This document shows positions 1,215 through 6,123 of a stretch of 38,454 bases of DNA, piece by piece. Within the stretch, counting starts at the first letter, position 1, and each line of letters begins with the position of its first letter. The translations under genes were made by a program, and so were the position numbers. The DNA comes from Pseudomonadota bacterium (lineage in GTDB: Bacteria; Pseudomonadota; Gammaproteobacteria; Competibacterales; Competibacteraceae): the NCBI GenBank assembly GCA_030917925.1, contig JAUPTV010000068.1, positions 1-38,454 on the forward strand, written 5' to 3'. The notes beneath the pieces are model-generated. The model did not search any database and was not told the origin of the DNA. It saw only the letters and a program-made list of their open reading frames with translations.

Positions 1215-3674
1215 TCAGGCGGCTAAATTTTCGTAAATGGCTTGTTCAAGTTCAGTCAAAGCCTGGGAATAGCGCTCATTACCGCCGAAGATGCCTCGTC
1301 GGATTTGCGTTTTGCTGCCTATTTCAGTGAAAGGCGGCAATTCCAGGATCTTCGAATCTTCGATGTCGGTAATGCCGTGGTCAGCGTACTTTTCCAGCAG
1401 AGCTTCAAGAACGGCGCGGGCTTCCTCGCCGTATTTGCCGAAGTAGTTCCGCTGCTTGACGTTGTTAGCGCGTTCCCGCCGACTCAGTGGCGGCTGGTCA
1501 AAAGCAATGTGGGCGATCAGGTCAAAGGCGTCAAGCAGTTCCCCTTGTGGAACCACCGCTCTCAGCACGTCCAGAGGGATGCCCTGTTCCCGCAACTCGT
1601 TGATAACCGCCTGCTTGCGCTCGGCTTCGGTCCAGCGCCGCAGGAAATCGTCGAGTGAGGTGAATTCGCGTCGGAGGGATGCCCTGATTTCCTCCTTGAG
1701 CGGAACACGGTAGTTCTCCGCGACCAGTTTACCGTTAGCATCGAGGTATTGAGAACGCTCGATAGCGATGCTGACATCAACGTCATCAATGACATAGCGG
1801 GTTCGGCCCGCTGTCGAATCGGCAATGTCCCGGTGATCATCCTGGCGGTCATCGAATCCCGGATCGTTTTCTGGTGGGTAGACCGTTTCAGGCATGGCTG
1901 GAGATTCCGCTTCGGCCTGATCCTCTGGCGGAACGATGGACTCATCCGGCTTAGGCTCGTACACCGTGACCGGTTCACCATCGAATTCCGGATCCTGAAA
2001 CAGCCGGGTAGCGCCCTTGAAATCCATGATGGTGAAGTAGAGCTTGTTGTAATCCTCGCGAATCCGCGTACCCCGGCCAACGATCTGTTTGAATTGACTA
2101 ATCGAGATAATAGTCTGGTCAAGCACGATCAGCTTGCAGGTTTTGGCATCCACGCCAGTAGATAGCAGCTTCGAGGTCGTGGCGATAACAGGATAAGGCT
2201 CATCGTTATCAATGAAATAGGAAAGCTGCGCCTTGCCTTGCTCGTCGTCGCCGGTGATGCGTACCACATAGCGGCGGTTGCTCGCGGCTTCGGGAATCAG
2301 CTTGACCAGTTCCTGACGCATCCGCTCGGCGTGAGGCTGGTCATCGCAAAAAACCATCGTCTTGGCCATCGGGTCAGTCGCTTTGAGATATTCCCAAACC
2401 CGCCGGGCCACCAACGCGGTGCGCTGCGTGAGAATGAGCTGGCGGTCAAAATCCTGTGTGTGGTACTGGCGCTGCTCGACGAGTTGGCCGTTCTTGTCGA
2501 TTTTGCCTTGCTCCGGGGTGTAGCCGAGCGCATCGACATCAGTGACCACACGGATGACCTTGTAGGGCGCGAGAAACCCGTCCTCGATGCCCTGTTTCAA
2601 CGAATAGGTGTAGATGGGATTGCCGAAGTATTTGAGGTTGAACTCCGGGTCTTTGATCCGGGTTTCCCCCGCTTCGAGCTTCTTTTCCTTGGGCGTGGCG
2701 GTCATGCCCAAGTGCGTAGCGTCGGTAAAATAATCCAGCACTTCCCGCCAGGCGGAATCATCGGCGGCGCTGCCCCGATGGCACTCGTCAATGACTACCA
2801 GATCGAAAAAGTCCGCAGGAAACTGCCGATAAATTTGCTGCCATTCTTCCTTACCCGTGACCGCCTGATAGAGACAGAGATAGATCTCGTAGTTCTTCTT
2901 GACGGTCCGGTGAGTGATCTTGTGCATCAACTCCCCGAAAGGGGCAAAATCCTGCTGAATCGTCTGGTCAATGAGAATATTGCGGTCGGCGAGGAAGAGA
3001 ATGCGCCGCTTTTCCCTAGCCTTCCACAACCGCCAGATGATCTGAAAAGCCGTGTAGGTCTTGCCGGCACCGGTGGCCATGACCAGCAGAATCCGCCGCT
3101 GGCCTTTGGCGATGGCTTCCAGAGTCCGGTTGATCGCAACGCGCTGATAATAGCGCGGTTCCTTGCCGTTACCGTCGCTGTGATAGGGCTGGGAGATCAG
3201 TTGTTTATGTGGTTCTGATTCGATACCCTTCCAACGCTGGTAAATAGCCCACAACTCATCGTAAGTCGGGAAGGCGTCCAGAGCCAGTTCGCGCTCGGTC
3301 GGCTGGGTGATGCCGGTGCGGTCATGCAGCAGAAAGCCGTCGCCGTTGGAGCTGAGTGCGATGGGCGCATCGAGCATTTCCGCGTAGTCCAGCGCCTGTT
3401 GCATACCGTGACCCACTGCGTAAATATTCCGCTTGGCCTCGATGACGGCAATGGGAATGCTTCCTTTGGCGTACAGTACATAGTCGGCTCGTTTGGGGCC
3501 GCCTTTGACTGCCGGATTTTGCAGACGGGACGCCAGGTTGCCGCGAACGATGACCCGTCCATCGGTCAACTGGACCTCTTCGCGAAATTGACGATGCGCC
3601 CATCCAGCGCTGATCAGTGCGGGAGTGATGAATCGGGTGCAAATGTCGCGCTCGCTGAGGTTCTTTTTATTCAT
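1215..3674 (-). CDS. hsdR: Type I restriction endonuclease, motor/nuclease subunit HsdR
   Basis: This is the ATP-dependent translocase and nuclease subunit of the type I system (EcoEI/EcoR124 kind), 819 residues. An N-terminal PD-ExK nuclease is visible as RADYVLYAKG followed by VIEAKRN (D64, E79, K81). The helicase domain has Walker A ATGAGKT (K206), Walker B-like box DECH (296-299), GMTATPKE, and motif VI VGRGTRIRED. An EcoEI-type C-terminal domain follows. I chose the ATG at 3672-3674 (MNKKNLSERDICTRF) because it matches where this family begins. A TTG at 3735-3737 would add 21 residues that do not look family-like. Neither start has a good Shine-Dalgarno. The gene is the first of the visible hsdR-hsdM pair and looks intact. 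Its upstream side borders mobile-element debris. Confidence 0.93.
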   Translation of the reverse strand: MNKKNLSERDICTRFITPALISAGWAHRQFREEVQLTDGRVIVRGNLASRLQNPAVKGGPKRADYVLYAKGSIPIAVIEAKRNIYAVGHGMQQALDYAEMLDAPIALSSNGDGFLLHDRTGITQPTERELALDAFPTYDELWAIYQRWKGIESEPHKQLISQPYHSDGNGKEPRYYQRVAINRTLEAIAKGQRRILLVMATGAGKTYTAFQIIWRLWKAREKRRILFLADRNILIDQTIQQDFAPFGELMHKITHRTVKKNYEIYLCLYQAVTGKEEWQQIYRQFPADFFDLVVIDECHRGSAADDSAWREVLDYFTDATHLGMTATPKEKKLEAGETRIKDPEFNLKYFGNPIYTYSLKQGIEDGFLAPYKVIRVVTDVDALGYTPEQGKIDKNGQLVEQRQYHTQDFDRQLILTQRTALVARRVWEYLKATDPMAKTMVFCDDQPHAERMRQELVKLIPEAASNRRYVVRITGDDEQGKAQLSYFIDNDEPYPVIATTSKLLSTGVDAKTCKLIVLDQTIISISQFKQIVGRGTRIREDYNKLYFTIMDFKGATRLFQDPEFDGEPVTVYEPKPDESIVPPEDQAEAESPAMPETVYPPENDPGFDDRQDDHRDIADSTAGRTRYVIDDVDVSIAIERSQYLDANGKLVAENYRVPLKEEIRASLRREFTSLDDFLRRWTEAERKQAVINELREQGIPLDVLRAVVPQGELLDAFDLIAHIAFDQPPLSRRERANNVKQRNYFGKYGEEARAVLEALLEKYADHGITDIEDSKILELPPFTEIGSKTQIRRGIFGGNERYSQALTELEQAIYENLAA

Positions 3675-3818
3675 GCAGATAGCGGCCTTGAAGGCTGTTC
3701 GCGGAATGTGATGGTAGTCAAGATTAACACATCGCAAAGTTTAGCCGTCCATACGCCGAGTGTATCGCCATGCCGGCTGATCAGCGGACATTCCGAACCA
3801 CCCCGTCGCTTCGCGCCA

Positions 3819-3840
3819 CCCCTCCTTAGCTAAGGAGGGG
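3819..3840. repeat. 22-bp perfect palindrome
   Basis: Both arms read CCCCTCCTTAG and its exact complement with no spacer, giving a self-complementary 22-mer. It sits 145 bp upstream of hsdR and next to IS-like end sequence. Palindromes of this appearance are often dispersed repeats or bidirectional terminators. There is no T tract, so a dispersed repeat is more likely. I see no second copy in the window. Confidence 0.6.
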
Positions 3841-3880
3841 AATCCGGAAATCTGGCGATCATCGAAATTTTCCGCGAGAG

Positions 3881-3911
3881 ACCCCGGCCTTCAGACCGGG
3901 GAGGGATAGCG
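3881..3911 (+). mobile_element. IS200/IS605-type end hairpin remnant (copy A)
   Basis: A stem CCCCGG (3882-3887) pairs with CCGGGG (3896-3901) around a CTTCAG-containing loop, followed by AGGGATAGCG. This is the form of the imperfect hairpin at the right end of IS200/IS605 and TnpB-only elements. The 14-mer GGGGAGGGATAGCG (3898-3911) recurs exactly at 38362-38375, also just after a hairpin. No transposase gene is attached, so this is a relic or a non-autonomous end. Confidence 0.45.
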
Positions 3912-3961
3912 AACGGCGCGGCAGTCCCCCTTGCGGGGACTGTTGAAGCGCCGTTCTTTTT
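3911..3961 (+). terminator. Two-stage hairpin with T tract
   Basis: The outer stem is GAACGGCGC (3911-3919) with GCGCCGTTC (3948-3956). The inner stem is CAGTCCCC (3922-3929) with GGGGACTG (3935-3942). TTTTT follows at 3957-3961. The structure would work as a rho-independent terminator for plus-strand transcripts. No intact plus-strand gene precedes it, so it may have ended a transcript of the vanished element. Confidence 0.6.
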
Positions 3962-3987
3962 GGTAGCATCGCTATTGTCTCCTATTT

Positions 3988-4144
3988 AAGACCTACCGCC
4001 GGGCTGGCGGGATGTCAAGTCTGTGGAGAGGATGTGAGACCTGAGGGAGTTGCCGGCTGCGGTTCAACCCGCGTAAGACTCCCCACTTTGGGAAATCCTA
4101 TCGGCGAAAACCAAGCCTTAACTCCTCTGGGCAATCCTCAATGA
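3988..4144 (+). pseudogene. tnpB: 3' remnant of an IS200/IS605-family tnpB
   Basis: In the frame ending with TGA at 4142-4144 the sequence reads ...AGCQVCGEDVRPEG... and continues open to ...TPLGNPQ. The CGEDVRP stretch is typical of the extreme C-terminus of TnpB proteins, just behind the zinc ribbon. Only about 50 codons remain; the RuvC nuclease domain and the rest of the zinc finger are gone. The right-end hairpin follows immediately, as in intact elements. The TGA overlaps the ATG of the downstream HAD gene (ATGA at 4141-4144). The left boundary is a guess; upstream codons are open but not recognisably TnpB. Confidence 0.55.
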
Positions 4145-4869
4145 AACAGAAAACCCTGATTGTGAAGTCAGGAATCCCCGTCCTTCAGGGCGGGGAGGAG
4201 GTCAAGATTCCACGATTACCCTGGCCGAACATCCGCACCGTCTTGCTGGATATGGACGGCACCTTGCTGGATTTACGGTTTGATAACCATTTTTGGCGAG
4301 AACTGGTCCCGGAACGCTACGCCGAACGCCACGGTCTGGCGCTGGATCAGGCTCGCATCGAGGTCCGAACCCGCACCCACGCCATCGAGGGTACACTGAA
4401 TTGGTATTGCCTGGATTACTGGGCGCAGGATTTGGACCTGGATATCATGGCGCTCAAGCGCGAGATCGACCATTTGATCGCTGTCCATCCCCATGTCCTG
4501 GAATTTCTGGATGCGCTGCGCCGGGCCAGCAAGCGAGTCGTGCTGGTCACCAACGCCCATCAGGATAGTCTGGCGCTGAAAATGGAGAAAACCCGGCTAG
4601 CTGAGCATTTTGACGCGATGATCTGCGCCCATGATCTGGGGCTGGTCAAGGAACAGCCGGAATTCTGGCCCCGGTTGCAGGACGTCGAGCCGTTTGATCC
4701 CGCGACAACCCTGCTGGTCGACGATAATCTGGACATCCTGCGCACCGCGCAGAACTATGGAATCGCCTGGCTGGTGTCGGCACTGCATCCGGATTCCGCC
4801 GATCCGCCGCGCCTGCCCGCCGGTTTTCCGGCGATTCATAACTTTTCTGAATTGTTGCCGGTTGTTTAA
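4141..4869 (+). CDS. yrfG: HAD-family nucleotidase, YrfG-like, with element-derived N-terminus
   Basis: This is a haloacid-dehalogenase phosphatase resembling E. coli YrfG (GMP/IMP nucleotidase), 242 residues. Motif I is LLDMDGTLLDL with nucleophile D37 and D39; motif II is LVTNAH; the motif III lysine lies in GLVKEQPEFW; motif IV is LLVDDN. The block TLNWYCLDYW is shared with YrfG. YrfG has about a dozen residues before motif I, whereas this frame has 36. The first 22 or so (to about 4205) are translated from the tnpB tail and right-end hairpin (SGIPVLQGGEE). No ATG or GTG lies between 4144 and motif I, so the ATG at 4141 is the only good start, and it overlaps the tnpB stop. The Shine-Dalgarno is not obvious. 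The catalytic core is complete, so the enzyme could still work. Confidence 0.85.
   Translation: MKQKTLIVKSGIPVLQGGEEVKIPRLPWPNIRTVLLDMDGTLLDLRFDNHFWRELVPERYAERHGLALDQARIEVRTRTHAIEGTLNWYCLDYWAQDLDLDIMALKREIDHLIAVHPHVLEFLDALRRASKRVVLVTNAHQDSLALKMEKTRLAEHFDAMICAHDLGLVKEQPEFWPRLQDVEPFDPATTLLVDDNLDILRTAQNYGIAWLVSALHPDSADPPRLPAGFPAIHNFSELLPVV
4161..4205 (+). mobile_element. IS200/IS605 right end / omega-RNA-type hairpin ending in TCAA
   Basis: A stem runs from CCCCGTCCT (4176-4184) to AGGGCGGGG (4187-4195), followed by AGGAGG and TCAA (4202-4205). This hairpin plus a terminal TCAA matches right ends of the IS608/ISDra2 class, where the same stretch is the 3' scaffold of the TnpB guide RNA. A small CCTGA...TCAGG stem precedes it. 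The end lies inside the reading frame of the next gene and is translated as part of its N-terminus. I infer an old insertion at the 5' end of that gene. Confidence 0.6.
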
Positions 4870-4926: not shown

Positions 4927-6123
4927 ATGCATGAACTGCAACCCGGTCAGAACCAACCCATTGGCGGCGGGCGCATCGTCGTCGGTATCAGCGGCGAGCC
5001 GCGTGAGGATTTCGAAGCCCAAACCCAGACCGGCGCAGTATTACTGGGCGCGGACGGGCAGGCGCGTGATTTATCCAGTCTGATCAGTGCCGAACAGCCC
5101 CGGTCGCTGGAGGGTTCCGTCGTTTTTACCGGCTATCCCCCAGCCTTCTGCATTGAACTGGACGTCGTACCCGCCACCGTGGCGCGGATTGCCCTGGTGC
5201 TGGCAGTTAAACCCGGTCAATCAGCGGGCGTCACTTTCGGGAATTTCACGACTGTTCGGACCTGGTTGACCGACGCTGCGGATAAACCGGTATTGCTGTT
5301 TCCACTGCCGCCCGCCACCTATGGCGAGAAGGCGATGGTGATGGCGGAATTGTATCGTTATCACGGGCAGTGGAAATTCCGGGCCATCGGCCAAGGCTTT
5401 GCGGCCGGCTTGCCGGCGCTGGCGGCGCATTTTGGCCTGCGCATCCCGGAAGCGCATCCCGTTGCCAGTCCGGGATCACGCCCGCCTGCCGGTCTGTCGT
5501 CGTTCAGTGGCACCGGGTTTTGTGTTCATCCCGACGGCTATGTGCTGACCAATTACCATGTCATTGAGGGCGCTCACGACATTCAGGGGCGCTCGCCCCG
5601 CCAGCGCTGCCGACTGGAGCCAGTGTTTGCCGATCCGACCAACGATCTGGCTTTACTGCGGGCCGATGCGTCCTTTCCCGGCATGGCCACGTTCCGCGAA
5701 GGACGCGCCGCGCAATTGGGCGAGTCGGTGATTGTCATCGGCTATCCCTTGGGTGGGCTATTGGGTTCCGGGCCGCAAGTCACGACCGGCAATGTCAGTT
5801 CACTGATTGGCCCCGGCGACGATACCCGCGCCCTGCAATTTACCGCGCCAACACAATCCGGCAACAGTGGCGGCCCGCTACTGGACAGCGATGGCGCGGT
5901 GGTGGGTGTAGTCAGTTCCAAGCTGAACGCGGTGCGCGTCCATGAAATGACCGGTGACATTCCGCAGAATGTGAATTTTGCGATCAAGGCGGCGCTGGCA
6001 CGGGGATTTCTGGAAGCGGTCGGTATTGATTACCAGAGCCGTATGCCGCGCACCGTCCGTTCTACGGCTGACATTGCCACCGAAGCCCGCGATTTCGTGG
6101 TAAAAATCGAGTGCCAGGCTTAA
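4927..6123 (+). CDS. TerD-domain / trypsin-like serine protease fusion
   Basis: This 398-residue protein joins two domains. Residues about 14-172 look like a TerD (tellurite/stress, calcium-binding) domain. The final block, AMVMAELYRYHGQWKFRAIG with QGFAAGLPALAAHFG, is the TerD C-terminal signature. Residues about 190-375 are an HtrA/S1-type protease: GTGFCVHPDGYVLTNYH gives H211, DPTNDLALL gives D240, and SGNSGGPLLD gives S314, so the triad is complete. There is no signal peptide, membrane segment or PDZ domain, so it is probably cytosolic. It starts 57 bp after yrfG, with the intergenic repeat between them, and is followed 40 bp later by a sulfurtransferase on the same strand. TerD proteins belong to Ter stress systems; other ter genes are not visible here. 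The fusion and triad are clear; substrate and trigger are unknown. Confidence 0.88.
   Translation: MHELQPGQNQPIGGGRIVVGISGEPREDFEAQTQTGAVLLGADGQARDLSSLISAEQPRSLEGSVVFTGYPPAFCIELDVVPATVARIALVLAVKPGQSAGVTFGNFTTVRTWLTDAADKPVLLFPLPPATYGEKAMVMAELYRYHGQWKFRAIGQGFAAGLPALAAHFGLRIPEAHPVASPGSRPPAGLSSFSGTGFCVHPDGYVLTNYHVIEGAHDIQGRSPRQRCRLEPVFADPTNDLALLRADASFPGMATFREGRAAQLGESVIVIGYPLGGLLGSGPQVTTGNVSSLIGPGDDTRALQFTAPTQSGNSGGPLLDSDGAVVGVVSSKLNAVRVHEMTGDIPQNVNFAIKAALARGFLEAVGIDYQSRMPRTVRSTADIATEARDFVVKIECQA

Follow-up and report, generated by a model that had tools for sequence, protein, structure and literature searches.

The closest described relatives of the element reported here belong to the IS200/IS605 group. 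ISDra2 and IS608 use the targets TTGAT and TTAC, respectively, and in this group the TnpB tail together with the right end corresponds to an RNA scaffold extending into the adjacent DNA (PMC8612924). PATE-like, ends-only derivatives of IS605 occur in Halanaerobium and Haloquadratum, a Halanaerobium example measuring about 271 nt; they keep both element ends and the final portion of tnpB, and the term 'start codon' does not appear in the text describing them (PMC7290912). In Borrelia, IS605B stem-loops place degenerate IS605 ends at the borders of lipoprotein genes, specifically at 3' ends, and the passages on them describe no replacement of a start codon (PMC2775950).

How does the present locus compare? 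Like IS608 and ISDra2, its element inserts, without duplication, on the 3' side of a short fixed target and has imperfect end hairpins and a TnpB tail joined to the right end. Unlike them, it is 343 bp long with neither tnpA nor an intact tnpB, its target is (T)TCAT, and its right end is an open frame whose ATG lies at the tnpB stop. It shares with the PATE-like derivatives its shortness and the parts retained, but its family has many copies at start codons and stop/start overlaps. Degenerate ends at gene borders are common to this family and to Borrelia IS605B, although there it is the 3' ends of genes that are occupied. Rickettsia palindromic elements are also small mobile repeats, which add in-frame residues to host proteins; their sequences are unrelated and they lie inside genes, not at start codons by target choice. 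In the portion of the literature covered by our searches, start-codon residence of such elements was not described.

A 343-bp miniature element and its copies

The window, the whole stretch of DNA analysed here (38,454 nt), comes from contig JAUPTV010000068.1 of the Competibacteraceae metagenome assembly GCA_030917925.1 (4.2 Mb, 299 contigs). The features of the locus are as follows.

3763-3862, + strand: the larger part of another dispersed repeat (about 110-125 bp), lacking the usual right end CGGGAAAAGCGATA (repeat search)
3859-3862, + strand: target motif TCAT, directly before the element; precedes 35 distinct left ends, mostly as TTCAT
3863-4205, + strand: miniature IS200/IS605-type element, 343 bp (own-genome repeat search, copy alignments, shared ends)
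3882-3901, + strand: left-end hairpin CCCCGG-CCTTCAGA-CCGGGG (DNA fold)
3911-3956, + strand: long internal hairpin followed by TTTTT, terminator-like (DNA fold)
3998-4144, + strand: TnpB C-terminal remnant AGLAGCQVCGEDVRPEG...GNPQ with stop TGA at 4142-4144 (similar to the C47 TnpB C-terminus)
4034-4144, + strand: short ORF of 36 codons within the TnpB remnant, GTG start with a Shine-Dalgarno duplex of -6.4 kcal/mol, stop TGA overlapping ATG 4141
4141-4205, + strand: right-end cassette ATG...GTCAA, 65 nt (21 codons plus AA), MKQKTLIVKSGIPVLQGGEEV; open, in a phase that suits the third base of a split ATG
4175-4196, + strand: right-end hairpin, 9 bp with TTCA loop, putative omega-RNA scaffold region (DNA fold)
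4196-4202, + strand: AGGAGGT, a perfect Shine-Dalgarno-like string whose end lies 4 nt upstream of ATT 4207; anti-SD duplex -12.8 kcal/mol
4202-4205, + strand: TCAA element end; its reverse complement TTGA is the source of TGA for antisense genes at other copies
4206-4869, + strand: GMP/IMP nucleotidase (YrfG-like HAD) gene body (NF011564; native ATG at the junction codon in relatives)

On the left the element adjoins a gene for an EcoEI-like type I restriction R subunit (1215-3737). Further to the right, 4927-6123 encodes a single 398-aa protein in which a TerD domain is fused to a trypsin-like protease domain.

When 3880-4215 was searched against the genome, 42 matches were obtained, full or partial; several are full-length at 90-96% identity, and right ends halt at the identical base. 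Comparison of copies sets the boundaries, with TCAT directly 5' and TCAA as the terminal bases. The right-end copies are mutually 91-99% identical, which indicates recent movement of the family. The 35 distinct left ends represent the 343-bp element and its close relatives and were drawn from this genome and related ones.

The anatomy is that of the IS200/IS605 group. Imperfect subterminal hairpins are present at both ends without terminal inverted repeats, and folding of the whole element as DNA gives z = -3.15; a terminator scan did not include the internal hairpin at 3911-3956 among its predictions. Insertion is 3' of a fixed short target without duplication: right flanks begin directly after TCAA, and on contig C137 the apaH/folA flanks are consistent with an ATGA overlap. 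The remnant frame that precedes the right end reads ...AGLAGCQVCGEDVRPEGVAGCGSTRVRLPTLGNPIGENQALTPLGNPQ to its stop and is homologous to ...IKAAGLAVLACGETVIPV... in the C-terminus of the genome's own TnpB on contig C47, which NCBIfam names an IS200/IS605 TnpB. An HUH Y1 transposase (TnpA), which defines autonomous members, was not found within 3863-4205. Three tnpA genes lie elsewhere in the genome, where tnpB genes are also present: on C47 a tnpB element shares the left end and is cut off by the end of the contig, C180 and C69 carry both tnpA and tnpB in relatives of the 343-bp element, and C38 also has a tnpA. An autonomous parent copy of exactly this subfamily was not found in the genome. 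Hairpin ends, a TnpB tail and no transposase of its own, with TnpA and TnpB genes elsewhere, point to a miniature, non-autonomous IS200/IS605 derivative rather than an autonomous member.

A first-pass annotation had seen here the tail of a tnpB gene left by one decayed insertion sequence. The remnant is indeed present, but the element extends over far more than the tail and is one copy of a repeated miniature element instead of a single decaying one. By analogy with the group (PMC8612924), a TnpB RNA would take its scaffold and guide from the right end and flank. The Rfam search that the annotation had proposed for the right end returned nothing at the gathering threshold; the best matches, all below it, include HgcC (E 0.0005), sot0042 (E 0.0004) and HPnc0580 (E 0.013).

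The phosphatase start codon

The long ORF at 4141-4869 has 242 codons, and its first ATG (4141-4143) overlaps the TGA of the remnant as ATGA. The equivalog match to NF011564 (215.5 bits against a cut-off of 189) begins only at residue 25. About 24 Competibacteraceae relatives were compared, and most of them have the native ATG at the codon that reads AAG here (4204-4206). The closest relative (L031, also found as G005; 85% identity) reads ...TTTTGTC ATG ATC CCA CGA..., an uninterrupted TCATG from which the element is absent. This alignment places the insertion inside the start codon, TCAT/G, with the ATG split between T and G. G 4206, the third base of the ancestral ATG, now completes AAG: because the cassette ends in ..AA and the leftover G fills the codon, the frame is kept and the gene gains a 21-codon extension, which includes the peptide SGIPVLQGGEEVK. 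Given this phase, any copy of the subfamily inserted in the TCAT/G of a start codon yields the same in-frame extension. Since this segment recurs at 42 places genome-wide, with right ends at the same base, the resemblance at the junction is not due to chance. It is quite probable, in our judgement, that the element landed in the phosphatase start codon and supplied a replacement in-frame start.

The case that the annotation described is not unique. A fructosamine kinase on contig C199 (316 aa) begins with the same cassette; its Pfam match (E 3e-103) runs from residue 26, and in relatives from four genomes the junction codon is ATG. On C283 the cassette leads into a 786-aa multihaem/TPR protein, a multihaem cytochrome, and here too a start codon was probably split: the junction would restore the start MNLPTFHWRLPGFAALIALTF, while relatives are too divergent at the N-terminus to settle the ancestral start. 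An HsdR-like ORF on C16 is fused in frame to the cassette with T, not G, as its junction base, which excludes a split start codon. Two ORFs of other genomes, one CobQ-like (L200) and one radical-SAM (L217), have in-frame starts at the junction, at copies lacking the ATG or truncated before it. All ATG-type right ends in the genome are without the TAG found in the hairpin of other elements; because they are near-identical by descent, its absence is not counted as evidence of selection.

The annotation had noted the overlap of ATG 4141 with the stop of a TnpB remnant, which we confirm, and had assigned the first 22 or so codons to a right-end hairpin ending at TCAA (4202-4205), in agreement with the 21 codons plus AA of the cassette. 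It had put the insertion at or just before the original start; relatives do start at the junction codon, but the site lies within it. The empty site that it had asked for is found in the closest relative, as TC/ATG, but the left flank in the window does not come from that site. None of the relatives compared has the same 22-residue N-terminus apart from tnpB, an arrangement that it had named as evidence against itself. As it proposed, the right end appears to provide the start codon and first 21 codons, but its term 'exapted' implies selection on the cassette or established use, which is unsupported. Altogether the earlier interpretation is partly supported and too narrow.

Gene boundaries at both ends

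Why would such an element be found at start codons? The reverse complement of TCAT is ATGA, so left ends can abut an outward frame that starts at ATG. Outward frames of at least 60 codons begin at the target ATG in 23 of the 35 distinct TCAT left ends, and 18 of 20 such frames scanned carry Pfam families (FolA, DsbB, DapE, Mdh, GreA, GspM, Nudix, ABC ATPase and others). Among 22 gene starts in the window, 8 read ATGA and 4 read ATGAA. If about 3,900 genes are assumed, start codons account for some 4% of all TCAT sites and some 7% of TTCAT sites. Set against an expected 0.074, a count of 22/35 gives P ~1e-16; against a rough non-coding background of 0.38, an estimate and not a measured value, P is only ~0.003, which argues that most of the excess comes from target choice and survival. 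Start-codon residence is thus mostly explained by the target motif and survival. The left end places GGA or GGAG about 7-9 nt upstream of the outward ATG, and its anti-SD duplexes (-3.5 to -6.6 kcal/mol in most copies) are comparable to those of ordinary genes in the window. One full copy, at L188:2454-2799 (C105), lies between fliJ and fliK, and its retained target forms the fliK ATG.

Right ends show a matching pattern. Eleven antisense frames of at least 250 codons reach the right-end junction, and they are split 10, 1 and 0 over the three frames; the 10 use the frame in which the reverse complement of TCAA supplies TGA, and all 10 carry Pfam families. What appears to be an insertion into an operon overlap is best documented on C137 (L223), where the element occupies the apaH/folA ATGA overlap that is present in six relatives: apaH ends at the element's TTGA and folA starts at the retained ATGA. 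Related elements also lie between adjacent genes on single contigs, namely CarB/GreA, FecCD/ABC ATPase, PepP/FAD monooxygenase and GT2/DUF2064 (L193, L196, L201, L210), and these pairs keep the stop of one gene and the start of the next. DapD and DapE are on separate contigs, both of which end in the element.

From these patterns a course of events can be proposed. We infer that TnpA supplied from elsewhere would move the 343-bp element to the 3' side of TCAT. At the phosphatase, the target would have been the TCAT/G made by the start codon, with the ATG cut after T; the 65-nt open cassette, running from ATG to ..AA, would then form AAG with the leftover G and keep the gene in frame behind its extension. 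Since its target is ATGA when read on the opposite strand, the family would come to lie at gene boundaries: the left end would leave the outward ATG whole and set GGA/GGAG at its distance upstream, while the right end would exchange the ATGA of an antisense gene for TTGA, that is, for TGA in the same frame. Is the family adapted to such places? The parts of an adaptive reading are a target complementary to the start codon and its next base, a left-end Shine-Dalgarno at the right distance, and a right end that has an antisense TGA and a start cassette in the phase that mends a split ATG. We think it rather unlikely that these parts make up such an adaptation, with the ends shaped for translational neutrality by selection and not only by survival.

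Alternative readings and significance

We infer that translation of the phosphatase most likely starts at ATG 4141, either by reinitiation from the stop of the overlapping tnpB-tail ORF or weakly by itself. The annotation had called this the only good start; it is the first ATG of the ORF, but GTG 4162 and ATT 4207 may serve as minor starts. Could the fusion be real in the DNA and yet have no working start? The Shine-Dalgarno of ATG 4141 is weak (-2.4 kcal/mol), a promoter scan found no sigma-70-like promoter near it, and the conserved upstream segment of the relatives, including GGTGGAG, is absent here. With the family's movement so recent, the ORF might be intact merely through recency, its promoter and Shine-Dalgarno severed and the gene poorly expressed or silent. 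We take this possibility seriously while doubting it, as long intact ORFs stand in frame behind the cassette in at least two and probably four cases, and the 36-codon ORF from GTG 4034, which has a good Shine-Dalgarno, overlaps ATG 4141 as ATGA and makes termination-reinitiation plausible. Alternatively, translation could begin past the element at ATT 4207 and produce a nearly native protein. The AGGAGG lies 5 nt from this ATT, its duplex beats every gene start tested in the window, and E. coli infC, which starts at AUU, is a precedent. AUU generally initiates poorly, however, and many copies in this genome and its relatives have AGGATGT in place of AGGAGGT. The fructosamine kinase has AAG and ACC at the equivalent codons, and an ATT start therefore cannot be a general rescue; we regard it as distinctly improbable for the phosphatase as well.

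Two further readings concern the history of the locus rather than its translation. That the N-terminus is ancestral and its likeness to a tnpB end a coincidence has a negligible chance and is refuted by the relatives, none of which has the extension, and by the recurrence of the same 65 nt at many unrelated loci. The left flank demands more attention. It is not homologous to the upstream segment of the relatives but consists of a second repeat, with at least 42 matches in the genome, that is cut here at TCAT; other copies run past TCAT with CGGGAAAAG... This repeat contains the palindrome CCTCCTTAGCTAAGGAGG and has the ends TATTGTCTTTCCGG.../...CGGGAAAAGCGATA. A single empty site for the window copy was considered and rejected: TCAT joined to GATTCC gives ATGATTCC, but any left flank in TCAT before G does so, and the flank is another repeat. 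The relatives' upstream neighbour of the phosphatase, cysQ, is here on contig C30, so that synteny is broken; on that contig (G000:C30) the sequence upstream of cysQ is a different one and lacks the element. With another repeat as left flank, the upstream segment missing and cysQ displaced, the window copy must combine two insertion sites, brought together either through recombination between copies or in the assembly step. In the latter case two contigs would have been joined through the 343-bp repeat, and the hsdR-side and phosphatase-side flanks would not be neighbours in the cell. Many contigs of the assembly do end inside the element, and the flanks do not make one empty site; homologous recombination between copies would give the same picture, and we consider a chimera possible, if short of an even chance. 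This problem does not touch the right junction, which lies within 65 nt of unique sequence and recurs in the same form at other genes.

On the preferred reading, in which the element entered the phosphatase start codon and replaced it, a mobile element can enter a start codon or an operon stop/start overlap and leave all neighbouring frames intact. Host proteins would thereby gain a transposon-encoded N-terminus, and gene-calling programs will record these extensions as part of the native protein. For the IS200/IS605 group this offers a testable rule: the target tetranucleotide decides where in genes its elements survive.
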